A stretch of DNA of 64,000 nt from Caulobacteraceae bacterium (GCA_025450315.1 JANWHQ010000064.1:1-64000); one strand, 5' to 3'; counted from the first letter of the stretch, positions 33,048-62,881 are shown. Numbers and translations are program-made. The notes: generated by a model from the letters alone, not told the origin.

Positions 33048-33123
33048 GAACATACAGAGAACTGATGGTCGCGCCTGATGGTTAACGCCGCGGCGTGGGC
33101 TGGTTCGGGACTGAAATCGAAGG

Positions 33124-33530
<407 letters not shown>

Positions 33531-45919: not shown

Positions 45920-46020
45920 AGCGCGTTCCGAAAAGCGGGAACCGGTGTTGGGAACAGAACGCGCGTGAATGCAAAGATCTAGAGCGGCGATCTGATTCCA
46001 TCAGATCGCAACCTGCTCTA
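45920..46020. repeat. Two intergenic palindromes between moeA and mobB
   Basis: First palindrome: GCGCGTTC (45921-45928) facing GAACGCGC (45957-45964), with inner GTTCC/GGAAC pairing. Second: GCGATCTGAT (45987-45996) facing ATCAGATCGC (46000-46009) with a 3-nt loop, bracketed by TAGAGC (45980) and GCTCTA (46015-46020). The mobB stop codon lies in the last arm. The element resembles dispersed repeats of Caulobacterales and could serve as terminator for both convergent genes. Confidence 0.6.
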
Positions 46021-46545
46021 GGGCCGCAGAGGGCGCCAGGCGATCTGGTCCACAGCGACGGCAAGCCGCTCGACCAGGTCGGCGATGGCGGCGACGTCGT
46101 CCAGGCCGACGTGGGGGATCGGCGCCTCGGCCATCACCGGATCGCTGGCGATGGCCGCGATCTGCGCATCGTCCGGAAAGAGCAGCGGCTTGCCCACCGC
46201 CGACCGGTGGATCTCGATCTTCGGGTGCCCCTGGCGCTTGAAGCCCTCGACCAGCACGAGGTCGACCGGGGCCAGGTGTCCCACCAGCTCGGCCAGGTCC
46301 GGCTCGGCCGCGCCGCGATGCTCGTGCATCAGGGCCCAGCGCCGCTCGGAGGAGATCAGCACCTCATGGGCGCCGGCCTCGCGGTGGACGTAGGAATCCT
46401 TGCCCGGCTTGTCGACGTCGAAGGCATGGTGCGCGTGCTTGACGGTCGACACCGTGCGCCCACGCCGGATCAGGGCCGGGATCAGGACGGTGAGCAGGGT
46501 GGTCTTGCCCGAGCCGCTCCACCCGGACAGCCCGATCAGGCGCAC
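46018..46545 (-). CDS. mobB: Molybdopterin-guanine dinucleotide biosynthesis protein MobB
   Basis: GTP-binding accessory factor of MGD synthesis; 175 aa. P-loop GWSGSGKTTLL at residue 8, then STVKHAHHAFDVDKPGKDSY and LVLVEGFK, all family features. The start is GTG 46545, 13 bp after the stop of the FDH1 alpha gene. It is last gene of the receptor-moeA2-FDH1-mobB unit. Confidence 0.94.
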   Translation of the reverse strand: MRLIGLSGWSGSGKTTLLTVLIPALIRRGRTVSTVKHAHHAFDVDKPGKDSYVHREAGAHEVLISSERRWALMHEHRGAAEPDLAELVGHLAPVDLVLVEGFKRQGHPKIEIHRSAVGKPLLFPDDAQIAAIASDPVMAEAPIPHVGLDDVAAIADLVERLAVAVDQIAWRPLRP

Positions 46546-46558
46546 CCGCTGGGCATCC

Positions 46559-49357
46559 TCATTCGGCCGGTTCGACCACCGGCTGTCGCACCGCCTCGAC
46601 CCGGGCGGCGCAGTACTTGAACTCGGGGATCTTGCCGTAGGGGTCCAGCATCGGGTTGGTCAGCTTGTTGGCCGGACTTTCGTTGAAGCAGAAGGGCATG
46701 AAGACCATGTCCTCGGCGACGTCGCGGTCGGCGCGCAGCACCGCCTCGATCCGGCCGCGGCGGGTCTCCACCGCGATCATGTCGCCCGGCGTCAGGTCCT
46801 GGCGCGCGATCGTCCGCGGGTTCATGGCGGCGATGCCCTGGGGCTCGATGGCGTCGAGCACGCCGGCGCGGCGGGTCATGGCGCCGGTGTGCCAGTGCTC
46901 GAGCATGCGGCCGGTGGTCAGCACCATCGGGTACTCGGCGTCCGGAACCTCGGCCGGCGGCAGCAGGTCGGCCGGCACGATGCGGCCGCGGCCGTCGGAG
47001 GTGGGGAAGCCGGAGGTGAACACCACCTCGTCGCCCGGGATGTCGGGGCCGCGGGCCGGATAGATCACCGAGTCCTCGCGCTCCAGCCGCTCCCAGGAGA
47101 TGTTGTTCAGCGACGGCATGGCCTTGCCCATTTCGGCATAGACGTCCGAGACCTGGTCGTAGCGCCAGTCCATCCCGATCCTCTGGCCCAGCTCGACGAT
47201 CAGCTCCCAGTCCTGGCGGGCCTGGCCGGGCATGTCGAGGGCCGGACGGCCGATCTGCACCTGACGGTTGGTGTTGGTGTAGGTGCCCAGCTTCTCGGCG
47301 TGGGCCGAGGCCGGGAAGATCACGTCGGCGTGCCAGGCGGTCTCGGTGAAGAAGATGTCCTGCACCACCAGATGCTCGAGCTTGGCCAGGGCATGGCGGG
47401 CGTGCTGCTGGTCGGGGTCCGACATCGCGGGGTTCTCGCCCATGATGTACATGCCCTTGATCTCGCCCTCGTGGATCGCGTCCACGATCTCGACCACGGT
47501 CAGGCCCTTCTTGGGGTCCAGCGTCTGGCCCCAGAAGTTCTCGTAGAAGCCGCGGATGTCGGGGTTCTCCACCGACTTGTAGTCCGGGAAGTACATCGGG
47601 ATCAGGCCGACGTCGGAGGCGCCCTGGACGTTGTTCTGGCCGCGCAGCGGATGCAGGCCCGTGCCCGGCCGGCCGATCTGGCCGGTGATCAGCGACAGGG
47701 CGATCAGGCAGCGGGCGTTGTCGGTGCCGTGGGTGTGCTGGGAGATGCCCATGCCCCAGAAGATGATCGAGCGCTCGGAGGTGGCGTAGGTGCGCGCCAC
47801 CTCGCGCAGGGTCTTGGCGTCGATGCCGCAGACGTCGGCCATGGACTCCGGCGAGAAGCCCTTGACCTTTTCCTTCAGCGCCTCGAAGCCCGAGACGTTC
47901 GCCTGGATGTACTGCTCGTCGTAGAGCTTCTCCTCGATGATCACGTGCAGCAGCGCGTTCAGCATGGCCACGTCGCTGCCCGGCCGGAAGCGCAGCGAAT
48001 AGGTGGCGTGGCGCATCATGTCCTGGCCGCGCGGATCCATGATGATCAGCTTGGCGCCCTTCTTCACGGCCTGCTTGAAGTAGGTCGCGGCCACCGGGTG
48101 GTTGGTGGTGGGCCGGGCGCCGATGACGATGATGCACTCGGCCTTCATGGCGTCGGTGAAGGGCGCCGAGACCGCGCCGGATCCCACCCCCTCCATCAGC
48201 GCCGCCACCGAGGAGGCGTGGCACAGGCGGGTGCAGTGGTCGACGTTGTTGGTCCCGAAGCCCACCCGCACCAGCTTCTGGAACAGATAGGCCTCCTCGT
48301 TGGAGCCCTTGGCCGAGCCGAAGCCGGACAGCGCCTTGCCGCCATGCGCCTGGCGGAGCTTCACCAGGCCGGCGGCGGCCCGCTCCATGGCCTCTTCCCA
48401 GGTGGCTTGGCGGAAGATGGTCAGGGGATCGGCGCCGCGCAGGTCGGCGTCGCCGTCCTTGGGCGCGTCGTCGCGGCGGATCAAGGGCGTGGTCAGGCGC
48501 TCGGGCGACATGGCGTAGTCGAAGCCGAAGCGGCCCTTCACGCACAGGCGGTTCTCGTTGGCGAAGCCGTCGCGGCCGTCGATCTGGACGATCCGGTTGT
48601 CCTTGACCAGGACCTTGGTCTGGCAGCCCACGCCGCAGAACGGGCAGACGGAATCGACCTCCTTGTCGAACGCCTGGATCTCCCGCCGACGGCTGGTCTT
48701 GTCCATCAGCGACTTCTCGTAGAGCGCGCCGGTGGGGCAGGCCTGGACGCACTCGCCGCAGCTGACGCAGGTCGACAGGCCCATGGGGTCGTGCAGGTCG
48801 AACACCGGCGCCGCGTGGCCGCCGCGCTCGCCCATGCCGATCACGTCGTTGACCTGGACCTCGCGGCAGGCGCGCACGCAGGCCCCGCACGAGATGCAGG
48901 CGTCGAGATTCACCGCGATGGCCGGGTTGGTGATGTCGAACTCGGCGTGGACGTGCGCGTCGGCGAACTTGGACTCGAAGCGGTCCGAGCCGGTGATCCC
49001 CATCGACCCGGCCCAGGTCCAGAACACCGACTGGTTGTCGGGACCTTCCTCGGCCGGGCGCATGTTGCTGGCCAAGAGCTCGAAGACCATGTGGCGGGCC
49101 TTCACGGCGCGCTCGCTCTGGGTCTGCACCTCCATGCCGGCGGTGGGCTTCCTGATGCACGAGGCGGTCAGCACCCGCTCGCCCTTCACGTCGACCATGC
49201 AGGCGCGGCAGTTGCCGTCGGGCCGGTAGCCCGGCATGTCGACATGACAGAGGTGGGGGATCTTGTTCCCCTCGCGCTTGGCGACGTCCCAGATGGTCTC
49301 GCCGGCCTCGGCCGCGACGGTCTTGCCGTCGAGGATGAATTCGATCCGATCGGTCAT
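46559..49357 (-). CDS. NAD-linked formate dehydrogenase alpha subunit, FDH1 type
   Basis: 932-aa molybdo/tungsto-bis-MGD catalytic subunit. N-terminal [2Fe-2S] domain (CHVDMPGYRPDGNCRACMV, then SCIRKP). The His-Cys3 cluster motif of NuoG-like FDHs is absent here, unlike FDH2. Two [4Fe-4S] clusters follow (CISCGACVRAC, CVSCGECVQACPTGA), then CPFCGVGCQTKVLV and the active-site NNVDHCTRLCHASSV with Cys as metal ligand. The C-terminal cofactor domain has TNTNRQVQIG and PFCFNESPANKL. Two-gene FDHs with a fused beta subunit, such as Methylobacterium FDH1, are tungsten enzymes, so W is possible. ATG 49357 begins 3 nt after the beta gene stop. Confidence 0.93.
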   Translation of the reverse strand: MTDRIEFILDGKTVAAEAGETIWDVAKREGNKIPHLCHVDMPGYRPDGNCRACMVDVKGERVLTASCIRKPTAGMEVQTQSERAVKARHMVFELLASNMRPAEEGPDNQSVFWTWAGSMGITGSDRFESKFADAHVHAEFDITNPAIAVNLDACISCGACVRACREVQVNDVIGMGERGGHAAPVFDLHDPMGLSTCVSCGECVQACPTGALYEKSLMDKTSRRREIQAFDKEVDSVCPFCGVGCQTKVLVKDNRIVQIDGRDGFANENRLCVKGRFGFDYAMSPERLTTPLIRRDDAPKDGDADLRGADPLTIFRQATWEEAMERAAAGLVKLRQAHGGKALSGFGSAKGSNEEAYLFQKLVRVGFGTNNVDHCTRLCHASSVAALMEGVGSGAVSAPFTDAMKAECIIVIGARPTTNHPVAATYFKQAVKKGAKLIIMDPRGQDMMRHATYSLRFRPGSDVAMLNALLHVIIEEKLYDEQYIQANVSGFEALKEKVKGFSPESMADVCGIDAKTLREVARTYATSERSIIFWGMGISQHTHGTDNARCLIALSLITGQIGRPGTGLHPLRGQNNVQGASDVGLIPMYFPDYKSVENPDIRGFYENFWGQTLDPKKGLTVVEIVDAIHEGEIKGMYIMGENPAMSDPDQQHARHALAKLEHLVVQDIFFTETAWHADVIFPASAHAEKLGTYTNTNRQVQIGRPALDMPGQARQDWELIVELGQRIGMDWRYDQVSDVYAEMGKAMPSLNNISWERLEREDSVIYPARGPDIPGDEVVFTSGFPTSDGRGRIVPADLLPPAEVPDAEYPMVLTTGRMLEHWHTGAMTRRAGVLDAIEPQGIAAMNPRTIARQDLTPGDMIAVETRRGRIEAVLRADRDVAEDMVFMPFCFNESPANKLTNPMLDPYGKIPEFKYCAARVEAVRQPVVEPAE

Positions 49358-49359
49358 GC

Positions 49360-51036
49360 TCAGATGTCCTCGCGGAAATGGATCAACAGGTGGTTCACCG
49401 GGTTGGGCGCCGCCTGGCCCAGGCCGCAGATGGAGGCGTCCCGCATGACCGCCTCCAGGTCCCGGATCGCCGCCTCGTCCAGGGGGCTCTCCTTCTGCAA
49501 GAGGTCGACCAGCTTGCCCGCGCCTTCGCGGCAGGGGGTGCATTGGCCGCAGCTCTCATGCTTGAAGAACTTCAGCAGGTTGAGGGTTGCGTCCTTGGCG
49601 CTGTCCTTGTCGGAGAACACCACGATAGCGTGCGATCCCACGAACGCGCCCTGTTTCGCCAGCTCGCCGCCGAAATCCAGCGGGATGTCGCCCATCGAGG
49701 CAGGCAGGATGCCCCCCGAGGCGCCGCCGGGCAGATAGGCCTTGAAGGTGTGGCCGTCGGCCATGCCGCCGCAGTAGTCCTCGATCAGCTCGCGCACCGT
49801 GACCCCGGCCGGCGCCTGCTTGACCCCCGGCTCCCTGACCCGCCCGGAGACCGACCAGGAGCGGACGCCGGGATGCTCGGGCTTACCCTGGGCGGCGAAC
49901 CATTCGGGGCCGTTCTCGAGGATGTCGCGGACCCACCACAGGGTCTCGACGTTCTGGTTCAGCGTCGGACGGCCGAACAGGCCCACCTCGGCGATGTAGG
50001 GCGGGCGGTTGCGCGGCAGCCCGCGCTTGCCCTCGATGCTCTCCAGCCTCGCGCTCTCCGCGCCGCAGGTCTAGGCGCCGGCGCCGCGGCGCAGCTCGAT
50101 GAAGCCGGGCGGTGCGATGCCGGCGGCCTCCAGCGCGGCGATCTCGGCGCGCAGGATGTGCAGCACGGCCGGGTATTCGTCGCGCATGTAGAAATAGATG
50201 CGCTCGGCCTCCACCGCGTGGGCGGCGATCAGCGCGCCTTCCAGGGCGCGGTGGGGATCGCGCTCGAGGAACCAGCGGTCCTTGAAGGTGCCGGGCTCGC
50301 CCTCGTCGCCGTTGATCGTCATCAGCCGCGGGCCCGCGAAGCCGCGCACGATGCTCCACTTGCGCCCGGTCGGGAAACCGGCGCCGCCGAGGCCGCGCAG
50401 GCCGCCGTTCTGCAGCGTCTCGATCATGGCCTCGGGGGTGAGCTCGCCCGAGCGCACCCTGGCCAGGGTCCGGTAGCCGCCGCGGACCTGGTAGGTTTCC
50501 AGGCCGATGTAGTCGGGGACCACCACCTCGGTCATGCCCTCCAGGGCCATGTGGCGGAGGCCCTCCACCGTGGCGTGGTCGACCTCGCGGTCGCCGACGC
50601 GGGCGGCCGGCGCGGTGGCGCAGCGGCCGACGCAGGGGGCGCGGACCACCCGCACGTCGGCGGGATCGACGCTGGCGGTCAGGGCCTCGATCAGCTGCTC
50701 GCTGCCGGCCAGCATGCAGGCGATGGACTCGCAGACCCGGATGGTGATCGGCGCGGGCGGGGTCTGGCCTTCGTGCACCACGTCGAAGTGGTCGTAGAAG
50801 GAGGCGACCTCGTAGACCTCGGCCTGGGACAGCCGCATCTCCTCGGCCAGGGCGCGCATGTGGCGGGCGGACAGGTGGCCGAAGCGGTCCTGGATCAGGT
50901 GCAGGTGTTCGATCAGCAGGTCGCGCCGGCGGGGACGGGATCCGAGCAGCTCGCGCACGTCGGCCAGGGCCTTGTCCTCGACCGCCCGGCCCTTGGGGCC
51001 CCGGTCGCGCCGGCGACGCGGAACTTCAGCGTTCAT
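49360..51036 (-). pseudogene. Formate dehydrogenase beta subunit, NuoE-NuoF fusion, with in-frame UAG
   Basis: Diaphorase subunit passing electrons from FDH1 alpha to NAD+. The NuoE-like part (about 1-160) has CESIACMLAG and CVGRCATAP as [2Fe-2S] ligands. The NuoF-like part has RGLGGAGFPTGRKWSIVR, NGDEGEPGTFKDRW and C-terminal HESCGQCTPCREG with a later SICGLG for the [4Fe-4S] cluster. The reading frame is continuous over both parts except for TAG at 50071-50073, at the Tyr of the conserved GAGAY(I/V)CGEE. The next residues read TCGAESARLES where the family has ICGEES(A)MI/LES. Everything downstream is well conserved, so the lesion is either recent or a sequence error. ATG 51036 has GAAGGA upstream. 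Confidence 0.85.
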
Positions 51037-51072
51037 ACCCGTCCTTCTCTCGACCAAGGCCCTGCGCGCGCA

Positions 51073-52329
51073 TCAGAGCAGCGACGAATAGGTCATGAAC
51101 TCGACCATCCGACCCGGCTCTATGGTGGTGATGTCCTCGGATAGCTCGACAAGGCCGTCCGTGTCGATGAGGGACGACAACAGGCCCGCCCCCTCGCGCG
51201 GGAACTTCACCGCCTCCAGCAGGCCGTCCTCGCCGGCGCGCAGGCTCGCGCGGACGTATTCGCGGCGACCGGATTTCTTTCGGTAGCTGAACGCCGCCCG
51301 GACCTGGGCGCCCACGGGCCTGCGCCATTCGGCGCCCGCCAGGGCGAAGATCGCCGGCCGGGCCACGTGGGCGAAGGTCACGAAGCTGGCCACCGGATTG
51401 CCGGGCAGGCCGATGAACGGGCAGCCCTTGATCACCCCCATGGCCACCGGCCGGCCGGGCTTGATGGCCATCCGCCAGAACACCATCGAGCCGACCTGGT
51501 CGATGGCCGCCTTCACATAGTCCGCATCGCCGGTGGAGACCCCGCCGGAGGTCAGGATCAGGTCGTGCCGGGCGGCGCCCTGCTCGAGGATGCCGGCGAT
51601 GGCCCCGGCGTCGTCGGGCAGGATGCCGAGGTCGGTGACCAGGCAGCCGATCCGCCGCAGCATGGCGGCCAGCATGAAGCGGTTGGAATCGTAGAGCTGC
51701 GACGCGCCGCGGGCCCGGCCGGGCTCGACGATCTCGTCGCCGTTGGAGAACACCGCGACCCGCACGCGCCGGCGCACCTCGAGCTCGGTCAGGCCCTGGG
51801 CGGCGGCGACGGCCACGTCCTGAGGCCGCAGCCGCCGGCCGGCCGGCAGGATCGGCCTGCCCTCGGGGATGTCCTCGCCCGCCGGGCGCACGTTGGCGCC
51901 GCGCTTCAGCCCCGCCGGCAGGACCGCGCGGCCCTCCTCGTCGACGGTGACGTCCTCCTGCATGAACACGGTGTCGGCGTCCGGCGGCATGGGCGCGCCG
52001 GTGAAGATGCGGACCGCCTTGCCGGGCGGGACGGGCGCTCCCGCCGACATGCCCGCCTGGGTCCGGGAGGCGACCTCGAAGGGCAGAGCCTCGCCGGCCG
52101 GCAGGTCCTCGCCGCGCACCGCATAGCCGTCGACCGCCGAGTTGGTGAACGGCGGCAGGCTCAGCCGGGCGACCAGATCCTGGACCAGCACCCGCCCGTC
52201 CGCCTCGCCCAGCGCCACGCGCTCGGCGCCGTCCACCGGGCTCAGCTGGGCGACGATGAGGGCGACCGCCTCGTCGACCGACCGCATGGGTCCGCCGAGC
52301 GCGAAGCAGTCATCGGAAAGTTGGGCCAT
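51073..52329 (-). CDS. moeA2: Molybdopterin molybdotransferase MoeA (copy 2)
   Basis: 418 aa. Visible are NSAVDGYAVRGEDL, IFTGAPMPPDADTVFMQED, VAVFSNGDEIVEPG, ILTSGGVSTGDADYV, IKPGRPVAMG and FIGLPGNPVASFVTF. It differs clearly from copy 1 and is embedded between the TonB receptor and FDH1. In organisms using both Mo and W, separate MoeA copies can serve each metal; that this copy serves FDH1 is inference. ATG 52329 is taken; it lies 68 bp after the receptor gene. Confidence 0.94.
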   Translation of the reverse strand: MAQLSDDCFALGGPMRSVDEAVALIVAQLSPVDGAERVALGEADGRVLVQDLVARLSLPPFTNSAVDGYAVRGEDLPAGEALPFEVASRTQAGMSAGAPVPPGKAVRIFTGAPMPPDADTVFMQEDVTVDEEGRAVLPAGLKRGANVRPAGEDIPEGRPILPAGRRLRPQDVAVAAAQGLTELEVRRRVRVAVFSNGDEIVEPGRARGASQLYDSNRFMLAAMLRRIGCLVTDLGILPDDAGAIAGILEQGAARHDLILTSGGVSTGDADYVKAAIDQVGSMVFWRMAIKPGRPVAMGVIKGCPFIGLPGNPVASFVTFAHVARPAIFALAGAEWRRPVGAQVRAAFSYRKKSGRREYVRASLRAGEDGLLEAVKFPREGAGLLSSLIDTDGLVELSEDITTIEPGRMVEFMTYSSLL

Positions 52330-52397
52330 GGGCCAGACATAGTCGGGGCGGCCCACCGATCAAAGACCGGTCGCGCCGTCCCCGAGCCTGCCCCCGG

Positions 52398-54557
52398 TCA
52401 GTAGTCGAACTCCAGGCTGGCCATCACTGTCCGCGGCGGGGCGATGTAGGCGGTGTTGGCGCCGGCGCTGCCCACGATGTTGCCGTCCGCGATGGCGGTG
52501 TAATAGCGGGTGTCCCCCACGTTCATCACCTGCAGCCGGGCCGTCTCGTGGCGCCCGCCGAGCATGGTGCTGTAGCGAAGTCCGAGGTCGACGGTGACAT
52601 AGGACGGCGCGAAGGAATTGTTGGTGTTGGTCGCCGCGCGGTCGCCCTCGAAGTGGATCGCGCCGGTGAAGGCCAGGCCTTTCAGCGACACCGGGTGCAC
52701 GTCCGCGGCCAGGTCGGCCTTCCAGTTCGGCACGCCCACCACGCGCTTGTCGTTGGTATCGGGCAGCAGCGAGCCCTCGAGCCGCGCATCCACATAGGTG
52801 ATGCCGCCCAGCAGGCTGAGGTCGGGGCCGAGGGCGCCCTGGCCATAGACCTCCGCGCCCCAGTTCCGCTGGGTCCCGATGACCTGGAAGAGGTTGGTCG
52901 CCGCAACCGTCTGGGCCAGCGGGCGGGTCATCCGGAACCCGTCGACGGTGACCAGGAAGTCCGGCGTCAGGGCGTACTTGAACCCGGCCTCGTAGTCGGT
53001 GTCGCGGTAGGGGCTCAGGGTGACGTTGACGTTCTTGGAGCCGGCCGGCGCGGTCTCGCCCTGCTCGACGTTGTTGGCGTAGGTCGCGTAGAGGGAGAGC
53101 CGCTCCAGCGGCTTGTAGATCAGGCTGACGGTCGGGCTCCAGACCCAGCTCTCGCTGTTGGAGGCGGTGATCGCGCCGGTCTTCGACCAGCTCGTGGAGT
53201 TCAGGAACGCGGTGCTGACCACGCCCTGCAGCGCCCACTGCGGCGAGAAGTGGATCTCGTCCCCGGCGATCAGCGACTGGACCTGGAGCCGCCCCGACTC
53301 GTATTCGCCGCCGCCCGACGGCGTCGGCTTGGCCGGCAGCACCTGCGGATTGGCCAGGTTGCTCTTCCCCAGGCTGACGGCGATGGAGTTGTGGTTGGAG
53401 TACTGGCCGTTGGTGAAGCCGTTGGTCCCCAGCGTCACGTCGTTGGTCAGGCCGGCCAGGGTCACGTGGCCGTTCAGGGCGGCCATGTTGCTGAAGATGG
53501 TGAAACGCGGGACGGCGTTGAAGTTCTTGGTGACCGTATAGTCGCCGGTGTCGTCGGTCAGCTGGTCGGTGATGCCGTAGAGACCGCGCAGGGCGTCCTC
53601 GTAGAGAAGGCCGAGCTCGAGGTTCCAGCCGTTGCCAAAGTCGTGCTTCAGCTTGCCGAGGCCCAGGTTGCTGGTCAGGTCCGCGCCGGCGCCGGGCTGG
53701 CCGAGGCCGACGGTGGTCGGATCGGGCGCGGGCGGCAGGAAGGTGCTCTTGCCCGAGAAGTAGACGATGCTGCCCGGCAGGCCGGCGATGTTGGTCTCGT
53801 AGTGGCTGGCGTCGAGCTCCAGCACCGTGTGGGGGCCGAGGTGGATATCGAAGTCGCCCTGGACCAGGGTGCGGTTCTCGTGGCTCTGGGCCACCCAGGA
53901 CTCCCCCTCGCCATGCAGGACGTTCAGCCGGTATCCGAAGGCGCCCACGCGGTCGCCGACGTCGGCCTGGCCGGTGAAGACCCCGTCGGAGTCATAGCTG
54001 CCCACCGCGCGCAGCAGCAGCGAATCGGTCGGCCGCTTGAGCTGGTAGTTGAAGACCCCGGCCACCGGCTGGGGGCCGTAGAGGGCGCCGGTGGCGCCGT
54101 TGAGCACCTGGATGCCGGAGAGCCCCTCCCCGGCGTTGGCGGTGGTGCCGACCAGGCTCAACCCGTCCATCCGGGTGTCTTGCGCGATGCTGCCCTGGAA
54201 GCCCCGCGACTGCGGCCGCGACACCTCGTAGCCCTGCTGATTGCGGATGGTCACCGACGGCAGGTAGCGCAGGATGTCGTTCACCGTCCGCGCCTGCATG
54301 TTGACGATCAGGTCCTCGGGGACGGTGGTCACCGACATGGGCGTGTCGAGGATCGCGCGCGAGCCGAGCGGCCCGAGGTCGGCCTGCGGGACGACGTAGC
54401 TCGGGGCCACATAGGGACGCGCCGTCACCACCACCTCGCTGACCTTGGCGGGGCCGGCCGCCGACTGGGCGTCCGCCGGGCCGGCGAGCGCCAGCGCCAG
54501 GCAGGCCAGCGACGCGCCGCCGAGGAAGACCCGGCGAATTCGGAACAGATCAGACAT
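52398..54557 (-). CDS. TonB-dependent outer membrane receptor, candidate Mo/W uptake
   Basis: 719 aa. Signal peptide (cleavage near ADA-QS, residue 30), TonB-box-like EVVVTA, plug domain (about 60-180) with RYLPSVTIRNQQGYEVSRPQSRGFQGS and a beta-barrel ending in the terminal aromatic SLEFDY. It resembles siderophore-receptor types. The operator 19 bp upstream of its ATG is a ModE-type palindrome, and the gene heads a unit with moeA2, FDH1 and mobB. Next upstream is a FecBCD-type importer with the same operator. That context, not the protein sequence, suggests molybdate/tungstate or a metal chelate as ligand. A weak GACCGG/CCGGTC hairpin in the 68-bp gap may partly separate it from moeA2. Confidence 0.9.
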   Translation of the reverse strand: MSDLFRIRRVFLGGASLACLALALAGPADAQSAAGPAKVSEVVVTARPYVAPSYVVPQADLGPLGSRAILDTPMSVTTVPEDLIVNMQARTVNDILRYLPSVTIRNQQGYEVSRPQSRGFQGSIAQDTRMDGLSLVGTTANAGEGLSGIQVLNGATGALYGPQPVAGVFNYQLKRPTDSLLLRAVGSYDSDGVFTGQADVGDRVGAFGYRLNVLHGEGESWVAQSHENRTLVQGDFDIHLGPHTVLELDASHYETNIAGLPGSIVYFSGKSTFLPPAPDPTTVGLGQPGAGADLTSNLGLGKLKHDFGNGWNLELGLLYEDALRGLYGITDQLTDDTGDYTVTKNFNAVPRFTIFSNMAALNGHVTLAGLTNDVTLGTNGFTNGQYSNHNSIAVSLGKSNLANPQVLPAKPTPSGGGEYESGRLQVQSLIAGDEIHFSPQWALQGVVSTAFLNSTSWSKTGAITASNSESWVWSPTVSLIYKPLERLSLYATYANNVEQGETAPAGSKNVNVTLSPYRDTDYEAGFKYALTPDFLVTVDGFRMTRPLAQTVAATNLFQVIGTQRNWGAEVYGQGALGPDLSLLGGITYVDARLEGSLLPDTNDKRVVGVPNWKADLAADVHPVSLKGLAFTGAIHFEGDRAATNTNNSFAPSYVTVDLGLRYSTMLGGRHETARLQVMNVGDTRYYTAIADGNIVGSAGANTAYIAPPRTVMASLEFDY

Positions 54558-54575
54558 ATGAAGCCCCTGACGTAT

Positions 54576-54595
54576 CTATATACAGCTAGATATAG
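54576..54595. promoter_or_regulatory. ModE-type operator upstream of TonB receptor
   Basis: CTATAT (54576-54581), 8 nt, ATATAG (54590-54595), flanked by GCG on the right. This is the geometry of the published ModE consensus CGCTATATA-N6-TATATAACG. It lies just upstream of the receptor's ATG, where binding by Mo-loaded ModE would repress. No modE gene is in the window. Confidence 0.8.
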
Positions 54596-54687
54596 CGCCG
54601 GGTCCGACTGCTACAGCTCGAGAGGAATTTCCAGCCAAAACTTGGCTGTCGGCGCCTTCCAGGGGCCGGCTGTGGCCTGAAGGCCGC

Positions 54688-55497
54688 TCAGAAGGGCCGC
54701 AGGGCGCCTCGATCGCCGTCGCCGCCCGCGGTGGCGGAGAGGAACAGGCCCTCCTCGGCCTCCACCAGCCGCACCTCCACGGCATAGAGCCGGGACAGGG
54801 TCTCGGGCGTCAGGACCTCGCGCGGCGCCCCGTCGCCCAGCACCTCGCCCCCGTGCAGCAGCACCGCCCGGTTGAACCAGCGCAGCGCCAGTTCCGGCTG
54901 GTGGGTCGACATCAGGATGGCGCGGCCCTCGCCCGCCAACTGCGCCAGCAGCCCCATCAGCCGCGCCTGCTGGCCCAGATCGAGCGAGGCGGTGGGCTCG
55001 TCCATCAGAAGGATCTGGGCGCCCTGGGCCAGGGCGCGGGCGATCAGCACCGCCTGCCGCTCGCCGCCCGACAGACCGGCGTAGCTCCGCTCGGCGAACC
55101 CGGTCAGGCCCAGCCGGTCCAGGGCGCCGGAGATGGCGGCCTCGTCCTCGGAGGTCCGCGCCGGACCCCAGCCCGAGGCCGGGGCCCGCGCCATGGCGAC
55201 GATCTCGCGCACCGTATAGGGGAAGGACGGCACATGGGTCTGGGGGACATAGGCGATGCGCCGGGCGATGGCGCGACGGCCGTGCGCGGCCAGGGGGCGT
55301 CCGTCCAGCCGCACCTCGCCCTGGTCGGGGCGCACGAAGCCCAGCAGCGTGCGCAGGAGCGTGGTCTTGCCCGCGCCATTGGCCCCCAGCAGGGCGGCGC
55401 AGTCGCCGGGCCCCAGGGCCAGGCTGACCCCGGCCATCACCTGCCGCTCGCCCAGCCGCAGGCCGAGTCCCTCCGCCTCGAGCACCGCGGGACTCAC
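54688..55497 (-). CDS. FecE/BtuD-type ABC importer ATPase
   Basis: 269 aa. Walker A GANGAGKTTLL, Q-loop YVPQTHVP, signature LSGGERQAVLIARAL, Walker B ILLMDEPTASLDL and switch His in MSTHQPELAL. It is of the FecCDE/BtuCD importer type. GTG 55497 forms a GTGA overlap with the permease stop; GTG 55503 is an alternative. It is third gene of a binding protein-permease-ATPase unit with a ModE-type operator. MolABC of Haemophilus influenzae, a molybdate/tungstate importer, belongs to this same FecCD class. Confidence 0.93.
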   Translation of the reverse strand: MSPAVLEAEGLGLRLGERQVMAGVSLALGPGDCAALLGANGAGKTTLLRTLLGFVRPDQGEVRLDGRPLAAHGRRAIARRIAYVPQTHVPSFPYTVREIVAMARAPASGWGPARTSEDEAAISGALDRLGLTGFAERSYAGLSGGERQAVLIARALAQGAQILLMDEPTASLDLGQQARLMGLLAQLAGEGRAILMSTHQPELALRWFNRAVLLHGGEVLGDGAPREVLTPETLSRLYAVEVRLVEAEEGLFLSATAGGDGDRGALRPF

Positions 55498-56519
55498 ACC
55501 CACCCCCGGCGGATGCGCGGCAGCACCATCAGGAAGATCACCACGCCCAGAAGGTCGCTGACCACGCCCAGCGGAATCTCCGAGGCGGTCAGGGTGCGGG
55601 CCAGGCCGTCGCTGACGATCATGAACACCGCCCCGATGCAGGCGGCGACCGGCATCAGCCGCCGGTGCGTCGGCCCCACCAGCAGCCGCGCCACGTGCGG
55701 GACGATCAGGCCGACCCAGCCGATCACGCCCGCCAGCGCCACGGTCAGGGCGGAGGTCACCGTGGCGGCGGCGATCACCGCCAGCCTCAGGCCGCCGACC
55801 GGCAGGCCGAGGCTGCGCGCCTCGTCGTCGCTGAGCGCCAGGGCGTCCAGGTAGCGGGAGAGGAAGAGCAGCACGACACCCCCCGCCGCCAACACGGGGC
55901 CCACGCGCCAGAGCTCGTGCGGCTGGACGGCCGCGAGGCTCCCCAGCAGCCAGAAGACGATGTCGGGCAGCTGGTTCTCGGGGTCGGCGGCGAACTTCAT
56001 GATCGACAGCAGGGCGGTGAACAGGGCGGTGGAGACCAGGCCTCCGAACACCAGCAGCAGGATGCCCGGGTCGCCGACTCCCCGGCCGTCCCGGCCGAAG
56101 GCGCGGGCCACCACGACGCCGACCACCACCGCCGCCGCGCCCCCCGCGAAGGTCAGCAGCAGCCTGAGCTCGGCCGGGGCCCCGGTCACCACCGCCACGG
56201 CCGCCCCGAACCCGGCGCCGGCCAGGACGCCCAGCAGGCTCGGCGACACCAGGGGGTTGCGGAACACCGACTGGTAGGAGGCGCCGCTCAGCGACAGGCC
56301 CGCGCCGATCAGCATGGCGGCGATCACCCGCGGCGTCCGCTCGGCGAAGAGGATCACCTCGCCGGTGGCGTCCGCGGGCGGCGGGGCGAGACCAAGGCGG
56401 TGGGCCAGGGCCTGCAGCACCTGCGCCGCCGGCAGCGGGTAGCGGCCGACGCAGAGGCCGGCGAAGGCCGACGCGGCCAGCAGCACGAGGCAGACGGGCA
56501 GGATCGTCCGGCGGCTCAT
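55494..56519 (-). CDS. FecCD-type ABC importer permease
   Basis: 341 aa, about ten spans. Family motifs: ERTPRVIAAMLIGAGLSLSGASYQSVFRNPLVSPSLLGVLAGAGFGA split over the first conserved region, and the coupling-helix region ARSLGLPVG. GWVGLIVPHVARLLVGPTHRRLMP follows near the end. It overlaps the binding-protein gene by 4 nt. No substrate residues can be read from sequence. Confidence 0.94.
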   Translation of the reverse strand: MSRRTILPVCLVLLAASAFAGLCVGRYPLPAAQVLQALAHRLGLAPPPADATGEVILFAERTPRVIAAMLIGAGLSLSGASYQSVFRNPLVSPSLLGVLAGAGFGAAVAVVTGAPAELRLLLTFAGGAAAVVVGVVVARAFGRDGRGVGDPGILLLVFGGLVSTALFTALLSIMKFAADPENQLPDIVFWLLGSLAAVQPHELWRVGPVLAAGGVVLLFLSRYLDALALSDDEARSLGLPVGGLRLAVIAAATVTSALTVALAGVIGWVGLIVPHVARLLVGPTHRRLMPVAACIGAVFMIVSDGLARTLTASEIPLGVVSDLLGVVIFLMVLPRIRRGWV

Positions 56520-57478
56520 CGGGCGCCGCGAGGGGGCGGCGGCTCCGCGCCCAGGATGCTGGCGACCTCCCGCGGGATCATCGAATAGCCGAACAGCCGC
56601 CGGTAGAAGTCCCGGGTCTGGCGGACCATGTCGACGTCCCTGAAGCGGTCGGGATGCAGCAGCTTGGCGGTCCACAACAGCTGCAGCGCGAACTCCGGGC
56701 CGTGCCGGTCCCACTGATAGGCGCCGGAGGGGTTGCGGGCGATGCGGTAGCCCTTCAGCGCCGGCACGACGGCCAGGGGATCGTCCTGGACCCGCTCGTC
56801 CTGGCCGCCGACGATGATGATGTCGGGCTTCCAGCGGGCGATCTGCTCGACCGAGATGGGCCGAAGCGTGCCGTGGAGCTCGGCTGCGGCGTTGCGCCCG
56901 CCCGCCCGCCGGATCCAGTCGTCGATCAGGGTGCCCGCGCCGTCGGCCCGCAGCGGGGTCAGGGACCCGATGTGCAGCACCCGCGGCCGGGCGCTCTCGC
57001 GCACCCCCCGGAGGCCGCGATCCAGCCTGCGGACCACGCCGTCGAGATAGGCGTCGTAGGCCCTGGCGCGGGCCCGGGCCGTCGGGTCGCCCAGGGCGTC
57101 GGCGGTCTTGTCGACGCAGCCCCGCAGCGAGGCCATGTCGGTCACGCTGCAGGACATCGAGGGCACGCCCAGGCGCTCCAGGCGCTCGGCCTCGGCGGCC
57201 CGGCCGACGATGGCCAGGTCCACGTGGGCGGCCAGCAGGGCCTCGACATTGACCGGGGTGGCCTGGACCACCGTCGCGCGCCTCAGCGCCGGCGCCAGGC
57301 GGTACATCCAGGGCTGGGCCGAGGGGGAGTCGGTGGTCATCACCAGCCGGTCGGCGGCGCCCAGCATGATCACCGTGGCGTTGTGAGCGTACCAGAGGTC
57401 GGCGATCCGGTGCGCCGGGGCGGCGCTGGCGGGCGCGGCGGCCAGCGCCAGGACGACGAAGAGCCAGCGCCTGATCAA
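56516..57478 (-). CDS. Periplasmic metal/siderophore-type binding protein (BtuF/TroA fold, MolA-like)
   Basis: 320 aa with signal peptide (cleavage near ASA-AP, residue 20). Class III binding-protein features: RLVMTTDSPSAQPWM, then AHVDLAIVGRAAEAERL, a long helix about 125-160, and ISVEQIARWKPDIIIVGGQDE. The start is TTG 57478 with GGGAG upstream. It heads the importer unit directly below a ModE-type operator. Molybdate or tungstate, free or chelated, is the favoured cargo by context; a catecholate siderophore remains possible. Confidence 0.88.
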   Translation of the reverse strand: MIRRWLFVVLALAAAPASAAPAHRIADLWYAHNATVIMLGAADRLVMTTDSPSAQPWMYRLAPALRRATVVQATPVNVEALLAAHVDLAIVGRAAEAERLERLGVPSMSCSVTDMASLRGCVDKTADALGDPTARARARAYDAYLDGVVRRLDRGLRGVRESARPRVLHIGSLTPLRADGAGTLIDDWIRRAGGRNAAAELHGTLRPISVEQIARWKPDIIIVGGQDERVQDDPLAVVPALKGYRIARNPSGAYQWDRHGPEFALQLLWTAKLLHPDRFRDVDMVRQTRDFYRRLFGYSMIPREVASILGAEPPPPRGAR

Positions 57479-57535
57479 TCCGTGCTCCCGGAAACGGCTC
57501 GGGCGCCCGTCCGGGACCGATCGCGGCCTGACGAA

Positions 57536-57555
57536 CTATATTTCCCGATATATAG
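57536..57555. promoter_or_regulatory. ModE-type operator upstream of ABC importer
   Basis: CTATAT (57536-57541), 8 nt, ATATAG (57550-57555): both arms perfect and the same spacing as at 54576. It lies 58-77 bp upstream of the binding-protein TTG, in the 136-bp gap after fdsD. Confidence 0.82.
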
Positions 57556-57614: not shown

Positions 57615-57953
57615 TCAGCCCGCGTCGTCGCCCGGGGCGCGGGCGGTGGGCTGGCCCGTCCGTGCGAGCTCGCGGCGGATCTGGCCCGGAGAGGCCTCGC
57701 GAATGTGGAGGATGGCCTTCAAGGCGATCGGCTTCAGCCCCTCGCCGCCGGCGCCGTCGATGTGACCGAAGATCTGGCGCATCATCGAGGCGCCCCAGTA
57801 GGCCTTGATGTGGTCGGCCGTTCCCGCCACCGCCTTGGGCTCGTCGCCCTGAGAGGCAAAGAAATCGGCGATCTGGTTGGCCATGTAGACCAGCCGCTGC
57901 TCGGTCGACTTGTGGATCTCGGGCTCGGCGTCTTCGTCGGGGAGTCCGCTCAT
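57615..57953 (-). CDS. fdsD: Formate dehydrogenase delta subunit FdsD
   Basis: 112 aa. VYMANQIADFFASQGDEP with a later HIKAYWGASMMRQIF identifies the small FdsD accessory/delta subunit of NAD-dependent Mo formate dehydrogenases. It overlaps the end of fdsA by 4 nt. No such subunit accompanies FDH1. Confidence 0.93.
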   Translation of the reverse strand: MSGLPDEDAEPEIHKSTEQRLVYMANQIADFFASQGDEPKAVAGTADHIKAYWGASMMRQIFGHIDGAGGEGLKPIALKAILHIREASPGQIRRELARTGQPTARAPGDDAG

Positions 57954-60796
57954 TCGGCCGGCTCGACGCTTGCGGCGATCCGTCGGCTGCGCCGCTGCAG
58001 CACCTCGTACTCCTCCTGCCATGCGGTAGGCCCGTTGGACGGCGTGACCTGGACGGCGGTGACCTTGTACTCGGGGCAGTTGGTGGCCCAGTCCGAATAG
58101 TCGGTGGTGATCACGTTCACCTGGGCGTTCGGGTGGTGGAAGGTGGTGTAGACCACCCCTGGCGCGACCCGCTCGGTGATCAGCGCCCGCAGGGTCGTGG
58201 CGCCGGCGCGGCTCTGCAGCTTCACCCAGTCGCCGTCCTTTATCCCGCGGTCCTCGGCGTCGTGCGGATGGATCTCCAGCCGATCCTCCTGGTGCCACAG
58301 CGAGTTGGCGGTACGGCGCGTCTGGGCGCCCACGTTGTACTGCGACAGGATCCGGCCGGTGGTGAGCAGCAACGGATAGCGCGGCCCGATCTTCTCGTCG
58401 GTCGGGATGTATTCGGTGATGACGAAATTGCCCTTGCCGCGCACGAAGCCCCCGACGTGCATCACCGGCGAGCCCATCGGGGCCTTTTCGTTGCAGGGCC
58501 ACTGCACCGAACCCTCGCGCTCCAGCAGGTCGTAGCTCACACCCGAGAAGGTCGGGGTCAGGCGCGCGATCTCGTCCATGATCTCGGACGGATGGCCGTA
58601 GTTCATCTCCAGGCCCATGGCGTTCGACAGCCGCTGGGTGATCTCCCAGTCCGCGTAGCCGTTCTTGGGGCTCATCACCTTGCGCACCCGCTGGATGCGG
58701 CGCTCGGCGTTGATGAAGGTGCCATCCTTCTCGAGGAAGGTGCAGCCGGGCAGGAAGACGTGGGCGTAGTTGGCGGTCTCGTTCAGGAACAGGTCCTGGA
58801 CCACCACGCATTCCATGGCCGCCAGGCCGGCGGACACGTGCTTGGTGTTGGGGTCGGACTGCAGGATGTCCTCGCCCTGGACGTAGAGGCCCTTGAACTC
58901 GCCATCGACGGCGGCATCCAGCATGTTGGGGATGCGGAAGCCCGGATCGGACTGCAGCGCCACGCCCCAGTCGGCCTCGAAGCTGCCCCGCACCTGGTCG
59001 TCGGACACGTGGCGATAGCCCGGGAACTCGTGCGGGAACGAGCCCATGTCGCACGAGCCCTGCACGTTGTTCTGGCCGCGCAGCGGGTTCACGCCGACGC
59101 CTGGCCGGCCGATGTTCCCGGTGGCCATGGCCAGGTTGGCGATGGCGATGACCGCGGTCGAGCCCTGGCTGTGCTCGGTGACGCCCAGGCCGTAGTAGAT
59201 CGCGCCCTCGCCGCCGGTGGCGTAGAGCCTCGCCGCCCCTCGCACGTCGGCGGCCGCCACGCCGGTGAAGACCTCGACCGCCTCGGGGCTGCGCTCGGGC
59301 TGGGAGACGAACTCCGCCCAGTGCCGGAAGGCTTCGACGTCGCAGAAATTCCGGACGAACGCCTCGTCCACGAGGCCCTCGGTGACGATCACATGCGCCA
59401 GCGCCGTCAGGATGGCGACGTTGGCGCCCGGCCGGACCGGCAGGTGGTAATCGGCCTGGATGTGCGGGGTTCGCACCAACTCGGTCTTGCGCGGATCGAT
59501 CACGATCAGCCGCGCCCCCTGGCGCAGGCGGTGCTTCATGCGCGAGGCGAACACCGGGTGGGCGTCCGTGGGATTGGCGCCGATGATCAGCACCACATCG
59601 GTGTGCTCGACGGAATCGAAATCCTGGGTGCCGGCCGAAGTCCCGAACGTCGTCTTCAGGCCGTAGCCGGTCGGCGAATGGCAGACCCGGGCGCAGGTGT
59701 CGACGTTGTTGTTGCCGAAGCCGGCGCGGACCAGCTTCTGGACCAGATAGGTCTCTTCGTCGGTGCAGCGCGAGGAGGTGATGCCGCCGATGGCGTTGAC
59801 GCCGTACTTCCCCTGGATGCGCTTGAACTCCGAGGCGGTGTGGGCGATCGCCTCGTCCCAGCTGACTTCCCGCCACGGCTGGTCGATGGAGGCGCGGATC
59901 ATCGGCTTGAGGATGCGTTCCTTGTGGGTCGCATAGCCCCAGGCGAAGCGGCCCTTGACGCAGGAGTGGCCGCGGTTGGCCTTGCCGTCCTTGTAGGGGA
60001 CCATGCGCACGAGTTCCTCGCCGCGCATCTCGGCCTTGAACGAGCAGCCGACGCCGCAATAGGCGCAGGTGGTGACCACCGAGTGCTCGGGGACGCCGAT
60101 CTCGATGACCGCCTTCTCGTTCAGGGTCGCGGTCGGGCAGGCCTGGACGCAGGCCCCGCAGGAGACGCACTCGGACGAGAAGAAGGGCTCGGACTGGCCG
60201 GGCGACACACGGCTGTCGAAGCCGCGGCCCGAGATGGTCAGGGCCAGGGTGCCCTGCACCTCGTCGCACGCCCGCACGCAGCGCGAGCAGACGATGCACT
60301 TGGACTTCTCGTAGGTGAAATAGGGGTTGGACTCGTCCTTGCCCTCCTGGATGTGGCTGGCGCCCTCGTAGCCGTAGCGGACCTCGCGCAGGCCCACCTG
60401 GCCGGCCATGTCCTGCAGCTCGCAGTCGCCGTTGGCCGAGCAGGTGAGGCAGTCCAGCGGATGGTCGGAGATGTAGAGCTCCATCACCCCCTTGCGCAGC
60501 TTGGCGAGCCTGGGCGTCTGGGTGCGGACCACCATGCCGGGGGCCACCGGCGTGGTGCAGGAGGCGGGCGCGCCCGGCCGGCCATCGATCTCCACCAGGC
60601 ACAGGCGGCACGAGCCGAAGGCCTCCATCATGTCCGAGGCGCAGAGCTTGGGGATCCGGGTCCCGATCTCCGCGGCCGCGCGCATGATCGAGGTGCCCGC
60701 CGCCACGCTGACGGTCTGGCCGTCGATGGTCAGGGTCACCGTGGCCCCGGACTTGGAGGGGGGCGTGCCGTAGTCGATTTCCCGGATCAGAGGCAT
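57950..60796 (-). CDS. fdsA: NAD-dependent formate dehydrogenase alpha subunit FdsA (FDH2)
   Basis: 948 aa. N-terminal NuoG-like domain: [2Fe-2S] (CASDMMEAFGSCRLCLVEI, SCTTP), then DHPLDCLTCSANGDCELQ with the His-Cys3 cluster. Two [4Fe-4S] clusters (CIVCSRCVRACDEV, CVSCGACVQACPTAT), CAYCGVGCSFKAE and active-site NNVDTCARVCHSPTGYGL follow. The MGD-binding C-terminal domain has FLNETANYAHVFLPG and TTGRILSQYNVGAQTRR. Typical of cytoplasmic Mo-FDH of the fdsGBAD type. ATG 60796 has AGGAA upstream. It follows fdsB by 11 bp. Confidence 0.96.
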   Translation of the reverse strand: MPLIREIDYGTPPSKSGATVTLTIDGQTVSVAAGTSIMRAAAEIGTRIPKLCASDMMEAFGSCRLCLVEIDGRPGAPASCTTPVAPGMVVRTQTPRLAKLRKGVMELYISDHPLDCLTCSANGDCELQDMAGQVGLREVRYGYEGASHIQEGKDESNPYFTYEKSKCIVCSRCVRACDEVQGTLALTISGRGFDSRVSPGQSEPFFSSECVSCGACVQACPTATLNEKAVIEIGVPEHSVVTTCAYCGVGCSFKAEMRGEELVRMVPYKDGKANRGHSCVKGRFAWGYATHKERILKPMIRASIDQPWREVSWDEAIAHTASEFKRIQGKYGVNAIGGITSSRCTDEETYLVQKLVRAGFGNNNVDTCARVCHSPTGYGLKTTFGTSAGTQDFDSVEHTDVVLIIGANPTDAHPVFASRMKHRLRQGARLIVIDPRKTELVRTPHIQADYHLPVRPGANVAILTALAHVIVTEGLVDEAFVRNFCDVEAFRHWAEFVSQPERSPEAVEVFTGVAAADVRGAARLYATGGEGAIYYGLGVTEHSQGSTAVIAIANLAMATGNIGRPGVGVNPLRGQNNVQGSCDMGSFPHEFPGYRHVSDDQVRGSFEADWGVALQSDPGFRIPNMLDAAVDGEFKGLYVQGEDILQSDPNTKHVSAGLAAMECVVVQDLFLNETANYAHVFLPGCTFLEKDGTFINAERRIQRVRKVMSPKNGYADWEITQRLSNAMGLEMNYGHPSEIMDEIARLTPTFSGVSYDLLEREGSVQWPCNEKAPMGSPVMHVGGFVRGKGNFVITEYIPTDEKIGPRYPLLLTTGRILSQYNVGAQTRRTANSLWHQEDRLEIHPHDAEDRGIKDGDWVKLQSRAGATTLRALITERVAPGVVYTTFHHPNAQVNVITTDYSDWATNCPEYKVTAVQVTPSNGPTAWQEEYEVLQRRSRRIAASVEPAE

Positions 60797-60807
60797 CGGA
60801 GTTCCTG

Positions 60808-62364
60808 TTATGCCGGTTCGGCGAGGCGCTCGGCCACGACGAAGTCTTCCGGGAAGTGGGTGAGGGCGCTCATCACCGGATAGGGCGTGAAGCCCCCCAG
60901 GGCGCAAAGCGAGCCGAACTTCATCGTCTCGCAAAGGTCCGTCAGGATCTGGCGTTGCAGGGCGGGGGTCTCGCCGCGCGACAGCTTGTCGATGGTCTCC
61001 ACGCCCCGGACCGAGCCGATCCGGCAGGGCGTGCACTTGCCACAGCTCTCGATCGCGCAGAACTCCATGGCGAACCGGGCCTGCTTCTTCATGTCGACCG
61101 TGTCGTCGAAGACCACGATCCCGCCGTGGCCGATCAGTCCGTCCCTGGCGGCGAACGCCTCGTAGTCGAAGGGCGTGTCGAACAGCGCTCGCGGGAAATA
61201 GGCGCCCAGCGGCCCGCCCACCTGCACCGCCCGCACCGGCCGGCCCGAGAGCGCGCCGCCGCCGATGTCGTCGACCAGTTCACCCAGGGTGACGCCGAAG
61301 GCGGTCTCGAACAGGCCGCCGTTCCTGATGTTGCCGGCCAGCTGGATCGGCATGGTCCCCCGCGAGCGGCCCATGCCGTAGGCGCGGTAGGTTTCCGCGC
61401 CCTGGGCCAGGATGAAGGGCGCGGCGGCGTAGGACAGCACGTTGTTGATCACGGTCGGCTTGCCGAACAGTCCCTTGTGCGCCGGCAGCGGCGGCTTGGC
61501 GCGGACCTGGCCGCGCTTGCCTTCCAGGGAGTCGAGCAGCGAGGTTTCCTCGCCGCAGACATAGGCCCCCGCCCCCACGCGCACCTCGAGATCGAAGGCA
61601 TGGGCGGAGCCCGCGATGGTCTCGCCGAGCAGGCCGGCGCGCCGCGCGGTCGCGATCGCCTTCTCCATGGCGGCGACCGCGTGAGGATATTCCGAGCGGA
61701 TGTAGATGAAGCCCTTGGTCGCGCCGACGGCGACGCCGCCAATGGTCATGCCCTCGATCAGGACGAAGGGATCGCCTTCCATGATCATCCGGTCGGCGAA
61801 GGTTCCCGAATCACCCTCGTCGGCGTTGCAGACCACGTACTTGCGCTCGCCGGGGGCATCGGCGGTGGTCTTCCATTTGATGCCCGTGGGGAAACCGGCG
61901 CCGCCGCGGCCCCTGAGCCCGGACTTGGTGATCTCCTCGATGATCCCGGCCGGCCCCAGCGACAGGGCGCGCTCCAGGCCCCGGCAGCCGCCCTGGGCGC
62001 GGTAGTCCTGCAGCGACTGGGGATCGATGACGCCACAGCGCGCGAAGGTGAGGCGCGTCTGGCGCTTCAGGAACGGCAGCTCCTCCGGCCGGCCGACGCG
62101 CTTGGCGTGCGGCCGGCCCTCGAACAGGCCGGCCTCGGCCAGGGCCGGGACCTCCTCGGCATGGACGGGGCCATAGCCGATCCGCCCGTCGGGGGTCTCG
62201 ACCTCGACCAGCGTCTCCAGCTCGAACATCCCGCGCGAGCCGTTGCGAACGATGTGGATCGAGAGGCCGCGCTTGGCCGCTTCGATCGGCAGGGCGGCCG
62301 CCACCTCGTCGGCGCCGACGGCCACCGCCGCCGCATCGCCGGGGACATAGACCTTCACGTTCAT
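60808..62364 (-). CDS. fdsB: NAD-dependent formate dehydrogenase beta subunit FdsB (FDH2)
   Basis: 518 aa; NuoF-like with an N-terminal thioredoxin-like extension. FMN/NADH-binding segments RGRGGAGFPTGIKWK and NADEGDSGTFADRM are present. The GAGAYVCGEETSLLDSLEGKRG segment is intact, in contrast to FDH1 beta. The C-terminal [4Fe-4S] ligands are ESCGKCTPCRIG and SLCALGG. It overlaps fdsG by 4 nt. Confidence 0.96.
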   Translation of the reverse strand: MNVKVYVPGDAAAVAVGADEVAAALPIEAAKRGLSIHIVRNGSRGMFELETLVEVETPDGRIGYGPVHAEEVPALAEAGLFEGRPHAKRVGRPEELPFLKRQTRLTFARCGVIDPQSLQDYRAQGGCRGLERALSLGPAGIIEEITKSGLRGRGGAGFPTGIKWKTTADAPGERKYVVCNADEGDSGTFADRMIMEGDPFVLIEGMTIGGVAVGATKGFIYIRSEYPHAVAAMEKAIATARRAGLLGETIAGSAHAFDLEVRVGAGAYVCGEETSLLDSLEGKRGQVRAKPPLPAHKGLFGKPTVINNVLSYAAAPFILAQGAETYRAYGMGRSRGTMPIQLAGNIRNGGLFETAFGVTLGELVDDIGGGALSGRPVRAVQVGGPLGAYFPRALFDTPFDYEAFAARDGLIGHGGIVVFDDTVDMKKQARFAMEFCAIESCGKCTPCRIGSVRGVETIDKLSRGETPALQRQILTDLCETMKFGSLCALGGFTPYPVMSALTHFPEDFVVAERLAEPA

Positions 62365-62861
62365 GCCCGCGCCTGTGCGATCAGGTCGTCGAGCCGCTGC
62401 TCGTCCAGGCGCGCCACCAGCCGCTCGCCCAGCATGGCCGAGGGGCCCGAGGCGCAGAGGCCCAGGCAGAAGATCTCTTCCAGCGCGACGGAGCCGTCCT
62501 TGGAGGTCTCGCCCATGGCCAGGCCCAGCTTCGCCTCGGCCAGGGCCACGATGGCGTCGCCGCCGCGGGCCTGGCAGGCCTCGGCGCGGCAGAGCTTGAG
62601 CGTCCGCCGCGCCCCCGGCTCGCGCTTGAAGTCATGGTAGAAGGTCACGACCCCGTGCACCTCGGCCCGCGACAGGTTCAGCGCGCCGGCCACGATCCGC
62701 ACCGCCTCGTCCGGCACATGTCCAAAGGCGTGCTGCAGCGCGTGCAGCACCGGCAGGAGGGCGCCGTCCCGATCCACGTGGGCGACGATGATCTCGACCG
62801 CCCGCTCGGGCGTGAACGGTTCGGCTGGGGGCATGGGGGACAATGACTCGGGCGCGGACAT
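62361..62861 (-). CDS. fdsG: NAD-dependent formate dehydrogenase gamma subunit FdsG (FDH2)
   Basis: 166 aa NuoE-like protein. [2Fe-2S] ligands lie in LCRAEACQARGG and CLGLCASGPSAM. HGVVTFYHDFKREPG is the NuoE hallmark. The ATG at 62861 abuts the ModE-type operator; the ATG at 62837 is an alternative that would leave the operator in a short leader. First gene of the fdsGBAD unit. Confidence 0.94.
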   Translation of the reverse strand: MSAPESLSPMPPAEPFTPERAVEIIVAHVDRDGALLPVLHALQHAFGHVPDEAVRIVAGALNLSRAEVHGVVTFYHDFKREPGARRTLKLCRAEACQARGGDAIVALAEAKLGLAMGETSKDGSVALEEIFCLGLCASGPSAMLGERLVARLDEQRLDDLIAQARA

Positions 62862-62881
62862 CTATATCTGGCCGTATATAA
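62862..62881. promoter_or_regulatory. ModE-type operator upstream of fdsGBAD
   Basis: CTATAT (62862-62867), 8 nt, ATATAA (62876-62881): one arm perfect, the other one base from the other sites and equal to the ModE consensus arm. It touches the fdsG ATG. It also lies in the region shared with the divergent MOT1-type transporter gene. Confidence 0.8.

Follow-up and report, generated by a model that had tools for sequence, protein, structure and literature searches.

Our results suggest that a TonB-dependent receptor and a neighboring three-gene importer in a Caulobacteraceae bacterium quite likely form a single TonB-energised uptake route for group-6 metals, molybdenum and/or tungsten (Mo/W), under ModE-type control. 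Both lie in a stretch of 64,000 nucleotides (GCA_025450315.1 JANWHQ010000064.1:1-64000), which as a whole we call the window. A first-pass annotation of the window had placed the receptor and a FecBCD-type importer side by side, each with the palindrome CTATAT-N8-ATATAG at its 5' end, between formate dehydrogenases (FDHs) and Mo-cofactor genes, and had read them as an import system for Mo/W. Pfam domains bear out the adjacency of the two systems, the palindromes are perfect at 54576 and 57536, and the FDH and cofactor genes are present in the window as described. The import reading itself is supported by the ModE-type boxes, the Mo-gene neighbors and a MolB-like permease, and the FDH and MoeA of the receptor's operon refine it toward tungsten. 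The link is tighter than “side by side”, because the receptor heads a same-strand run receptor-moeA-fdh1B-fdh1A-mobB from 54557 to 46018. Judged from gene spacing, this run would be a single transcript. The importer genes have overlapping ends and all lie on the minus strand.

If one mismatch is allowed, CTATAT-N8-ATATAG occurs in three places in the whole 3.81-Mb assembly, all of them in this cluster, and the reversed pattern that served as a control occurs nowhere; the chance expectation for the window is 0.00. The three operators head the receptor-moeA-FDH-mobB run, the MolABC-like importer and fdsGBAD, respectively. The third, from which a MOT1-family gene diverges, adds to those listed in the first-pass annotation. 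At two mismatches there are 8 extra matches in the genome versus 7 for the reversed pattern, hence only these three operators stand out. As the annotation had stated, the E. coli ModE consensus, ATCGNTATATA-N6-TATATANCGAT (PMC545781), has the same arms and spacing. We also considered that the genome's ModABC genes might share the strong box, an idea we dropped since their upstream region has only a weak match to it (11 of 16).

The regulator that would bind these operators appears to have only the DNA-binding domain of ModE. The ModE-type helix-turn-helix (HTH) genes at C64:64309-64551 and on contig C162 are open reading frames of about 120–135 amino acids in which the second (TOBE/Mop) domain was not seen, and no match to TIGR00637 (full-length ModE) in the genome attains the cut-off. 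To judge from the translations, the second HTH-only gene (locus L004 1438-1803, C162:38746-39006) adjoins an apparent gene for a PiuC-type hydroxylase as well as the end of a further TonB receptor gene. The closeness of the operators to start codons suggests repression. Against this, it would be odd for two FDH operons to be repressed by their own metal, at least for the Mo-type one, and the regulator has no metal-binding domains.

At E ≤ 1e-60, none of the other genomes among 299 from the order Caulobacterales yielded the receptor, so we examined its conservation across the class and beyond. Boxes were counted in the 460 bp upstream of each receptor, with the core TATAT-N8-ATATA and at most one mismatch. 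Of 55 genus-groups, 23 have the core box, where shuffled sequences lead us to expect 1.7. When each group is represented by a single member and the window is excluded, the count is 21 of 54 (0.84 expected), and equal-sized random windows in the same loci contain the core box in 4 of 783 cases. The unmodified E. coli ModE consensus gives a similar picture: at p ≤ 0.01 it is found at 33 of 90 loci (window included), with 0.9 expected, and upstream of none of 14 control receptors. Near-perfect ModE sites precede the receptor in Serratia, Kluyvera, Cronobacter, Pantoea, Pectobacterium, Paraburkholderia, Nitrobacter and Bradyrhizobium, and Komagataeibacter and its kin carry the form TCTATAT-N8-ATATAGA. 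Fur boxes at the homologs, which the first-pass annotation had named as evidence against its own reading, were found upstream of none of 19 gamma- and betaproteobacterial relatives (the window genome itself lay outside this test).

The genes around the receptor point in the same direction, and the co-occurrence that the annotation had proposed to look for is indeed seen: receptor homologs carry ModE-type boxes and adjoin modA, moeA, mobA, FDH and ModE genes. We counted neighbors within a few kilobases with profiles built in this analysis, for 55 genus-groups including the window. ModA-type binding proteins and Mo-cofactor genes each occur near the receptor in 12 groups, FDHs in 8 and a ModE HTH in 4, whereas the same scan of 15 control loci yields incidental matches only. 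Peripla_BP_2 binding proteins occur in 18 groups and FecCD permeases in 9. At least one Mo/W link is found at the receptor in 35 of the 55 groups. All three ModA-type neighbors tested exceed the TIGR01256 cut-off. In Polymorphobacter a ModE-HTH gene comes first, followed by operator, receptor and ModA, and in Pararobbsia an FdhD gene comes before the receptor and a TonB gene after it. In Lichenicoccus roseus (L056 7146-9849), a WtpA-like protein and a fused permease-ATPase (WtpB/ModB-like with an ATP-binding cassette (ABC) ATPase) directly precede the receptor, a pair resembling the WtpA/WtpBC tungstate system. A ModA-type protein stands beside the receptor in L058, L089, L109-L120, L029 and L032; in the annotated loci L029 and L032 no ModB/ModC partner is noted. 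Receptor clusters with Peripla_BP_2/FecCD genes repeatedly include a methyltransferase-like gene (L030, L096, L101, L105, L115, L077).

The receptor belongs to a clade of its own. It scores 197.6 bits against TIGR01783 (TonB-dependent siderophore receptor), below the curated cut-off of 223.5, and the clade splits from an outgroup of 14 generic receptors with a Shimodaira–Hasegawa-like approximate likelihood ratio support of 100. Class-wide and plasmid searches show a gap in identity, with true relatives at about 35–65% and generic siderophore receptors at 30% or less. Members are found in Alpha-, Beta- and Gammaproteobacteria, and also in Geobacteraceae and Acidobacteriota. All 54 clade members have arginine at four positions (Arg114, Arg229, Arg324 and Arg640), compared with 0–14% of the 14 control receptors, a pattern that fits an anionic ligand without proving one. 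In an AlphaFold2 model (predicted local distance difference test score 87) the closest folds are FemA and BauA. On the E. coli plasmid NZ_CP098222 (L034 8001-9801), three aligned pieces make up what looks like a broken copy of the receptor, with no annotated gene there.

For the importer, the best match of the permease among solved FecCD structures, of which there are few, is H. influenzae MolB HI1471 (2nq2, 6e-56). The binding protein matches 4ovk and 4hn9 and then MolA HI_1472 (8.8e-15); MolA ranks third or fourth. MolA binds molybdate and tungstate (PMC4031551).

Which of the two metals is carried? In this genome, it is probably tungsten. The alpha subunit fdh1A scores 1360 bits against the M. 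extorquens tungsten enzyme FDH1 (7vw6) versus 538 against the Mo-type R. capsulatus FdsA; the alpha subunit of fdsGBAD has its best PDB match in the R. capsulatus FdsA family (6tg9/9wxb), that is, the Mo type. Elsewhere, all seven full-length cytosolic-type FDHs beside the receptor are of the FDH1 type (57–65% vs. 35–37%), although these seven loci represent perhaps three independent lineages. A 2026 study (PMC13197769) shows that M. extorquens has a tungsten-specific branch made up of MoeA1, MobB and FdhD, and that Arg291 and Ala312 bias MoeA1 to tungsten. The operon's MoeA has both of these residues, in the motifs IKPGR and GNPVA, whereas the second MoeA of the window (RPGK, GNPVS) has the canonical Mo form. 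Here, then, the receptor stands in the same gene run as the tungsten branch. Receptor-adjacent MoeA proteins in gammaproteobacterial metagenome-assembled genomes mostly lack the tungsten signature; that of Bradyrhizobium (L089) carries it.

For the clade as a whole the situation is different. Only 11 of 49 receptor-carrying genomes have the tungsten-type FDH (FDH1), compared to about one third of the genomes of the class, and we therefore dropped the idea of a tungsten-specific receptor clade. Across the wider clade the predicted cargo is molybdenum and/or tungsten.

If the two transport systems work together, the route could be as follows. The receptor would use TonB energy to carry molybdate or tungstate across the outer membrane, most likely as an organic chelate. 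We favor a chelate over the bare oxyanion because chelates are what the nearest folds bind, and a small oxyanion would be expected to pass through porins. The MolA-like binding protein would then capture the metal, and the MolBC-like permease and ATPase would transfer it to the cytoplasm, where MoeA1 and MobB from the receptor operon would place it in the FDH1 pterin. The ModE-type DNA-binding protein would govern receptor, importer and both FDHs through CTATAT-N8-ATATAG. Where a ModA gene adjoins the receptor, the metal would be passed on to ModA. Taken to its limit, the cluster could be a complete dedicated tungsten pathway from outer membrane to enzyme, with a TonB receptor for tungsten (or its chelate), a MolABC-like importer, MoeA1-MobB-FDH1 and a ModE-type regulator; we hold this stronger version tentatively, at somewhat less than an even bet. 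The coordinates of the features are given in Table 1.

Table 1. Positions of the genes and operators discussed, in window coordinates unless a contig is named.
Feature	Position	Strand	Basis or remark
mobB	46018..46545	-	Pfam MobB 1.3e-50
fdh1A, tungsten-type formate dehydrogenase alpha	46559..49357	-	best PDB match 7vw6, 1360 bits
fdh1B, FDH beta subunit	49360..51057	-	Pfam; in-frame TAG at 50071-50073
moeA, tungsten-signature MoeA1 type	51073..52356	-	Pfam; R/A at M. extorquens MoeA1 positions 291/312
TonB-dependent receptor, heads operon 1	52398..54557	-	Pfam plug and barrel domains
ModE-type operator 1, CTATATACAGCTAGATATAG	54576..54595		perfect palindrome, 18 bp 5' of receptor ATG
Importer ABC ATPase	54688..55503	-	Pfam, PDB search
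MolB-like FecCD-type permease	~55494-56519	-	Pfam; best PDB match MolB HI1471 (2nq2)
MolA-like periplasmic binding protein	56516..57478	-	Pfam Peripla_BP_2
ModE-type operator 2, CTATATTTCCCGATATATAG	57536..57555		perfect palindrome, 57 bp 5' of importer TTG start
fdsGBAD, molybdenum-type NAD-dependent formate dehydrogenase operon	57617..62861	-	Pfam
ModE-type operator 3	62862..62881		1 mismatch; between fdsG and divergent MOT1 gene
MOT1-type molybdate transporter gene	63051..64000, continues beyond window end	+	PF16983 1.4e-45
Second MoeA of window	44657-45919		motifs RPGK and GNPVS
ModE-type HTH gene	contig C64:64309-64551	-	after MOT1 gene, just outside window

Outside this cluster, the window also contains a class A RNase P RNA (33122-33526, minus strand; Rfam).

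Several observations weigh against a dedicated Mo/W route, or against its tungsten version. The low share of receptor genomes with a tungsten-type FDH has been mentioned. Twenty of the 55 groups have neither a box nor a Mo/W gene nearby. Gluconobacter is among them: in the receptors of this clade (12 species; loci L062-L072 and L074) neither box nor Mo gene was found within about 8.5 kb. Regulation and cargo of the Gluconobacter receptors may differ from those of the rest of the clade. The nearest solved receptors, FemA and BauA, bind small siderophores, and the proteins that rank ahead of MolA in the PDB search of the binding protein are of untested ligand. The local regulator lacks the molybdate-binding domains of ModE. 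ModABC genes are present elsewhere in the genome, so the receptor and importer would not be the sole route. Finally, fdh1B is interrupted by an in-frame stop on the minus strand, within a GAGA-*-TCG motif; the downstream part stays in frame, and the stop is either a recent lesion or an assembly error.

One could argue that we are dealing with an ordinary receptor for iron siderophores, put under ModE control since FDHs need iron besides molybdenum or tungsten. The closest solved structures are indeed ferric-siderophore receptors and FDHs are rich in Fe-S clusters. We nevertheless think this improbable: the relatives tested have no Fur box, ModA-type proteins and ModE genes adjoin the receptor in unrelated lineages, and the invariant arginines set it apart from generic receptors. 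FecCD importers often transport organic cofactors, B12 and heme among them. Together with the cofactor genes moeA and mobB in the operon, this could mean that the cargo is not a metal at all but an organic enzyme precursor, for example a pterin or a ready-made Mo/W cofactor. The ModA-type proteins next to the receptor are, however, members of a family whose ligand is the bare oxyanion, and the permease is nearest to the molybdate/tungstate permease MolB, which makes an organic cargo very improbable in our view.

A route for molybdenum alone is a narrower version of the Mo/W uptake route that we favor, and the two overlap. The tungsten-type FDH and MoeA of the operon would then be incidental, or the FDH would use molybdenum here. 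Enterobacteria, Paraburkholderia and Komagataeibacter members have boxes and no tungsten-type FDH nearby, this FDH is infrequent among receptor genomes in general, and a MOT1 gene lies in the same cluster, as does a Mo-type FDH. Against a molybdenum-only route stand the operon's MoeA, which has both tungsten-selectivity residues of M. extorquens MoeA1, and the receptor's FDH neighbors elsewhere, which are of the tungsten type. Such a route seems unlikely to us, although it deserves serious consideration.

Iron complexes and B12 are established substrates of TonB-dependent transport, and it has been reported for several other metals and for sugars. A 2024 review of the subject nowhere mentions molybdenum or tungsten (PMC11658791). 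We found no TonB receptor in a ModE regulon in the open-licence literature; Studholme and Pau (2003) and RegPrecise were beyond this search, and an earlier computational mention is possible. If experiments confirm the Mo/W uptake route, it would be a new type of TonB cargo, and a conserved clade under a molybdenum regulator would extend the machinery to group-6 metals. Should the dedicated tungsten pathway be real, the receptor described here would be the first outer-membrane tungsten transporter, as far as the searched open literature shows, within a broader Mo/W-dedicated receptor clade. A Mo/W receptor clade would also mean that diffusion through porins is insufficient in many habitats. Chelators of Mo/W, either environmental or made by the cells themselves, would be a further implication. 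In practice, the receptor gene could mark Mo/W-scavenging bacteria and offer a handle on the metal loading of tungsten-containing FDHs, which are of interest for CO2 reduction.

Parts of the proposed system resemble known ones. The receptor shares the plug-and-barrel fold of FemA and BauA (22–26% identity), but its clade, which has ModE-type boxes and arginines of its own, stands apart from generic siderophore receptors (FemA and BauA themselves are absent from our tree). The first-pass annotation had held that known molybdate uptake (ModABC, WtpABC, MOT1) has no dedicated outer-membrane receptor. One refinement concerns P. aeruginosa, in which the H2 type VI secretion system secretes ModA, which together with IcmP, an outer-membrane metalloproteinase, has been reported as a molybdate route; this route is not described as TonB-dependent (PMC8602904). 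It is similar to our proposal in crossing the outer membrane and different in having no TonB receptor. Like MolABC of Haemophilus influenzae (HI1470-1472), the importer is of the FecCD class. Unlike MolABC, it has a TonB receptor as its partner and stands under a ModE-type operator, and its ATPase is nearer to FhuC/HmuV than to MolC. The boxes share arms and spacing with those of the E. coli ModE regulon, whereas their targets here include an outer-membrane receptor and the local regulator consists of the DNA-binding domain alone, scoring below the TIGR00637 cut-off. The M. extorquens tungsten branch (moeA1-mobB-tupBCA with FDH1; PMC13197769) has the same MoeA1 type, MobB and tungsten-type FDH1 as the cluster described here. 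In M. extorquens these are accompanied by TupABC; in the Caulobacteraceae cluster, a TonB receptor and a MolABC-like importer are found instead.

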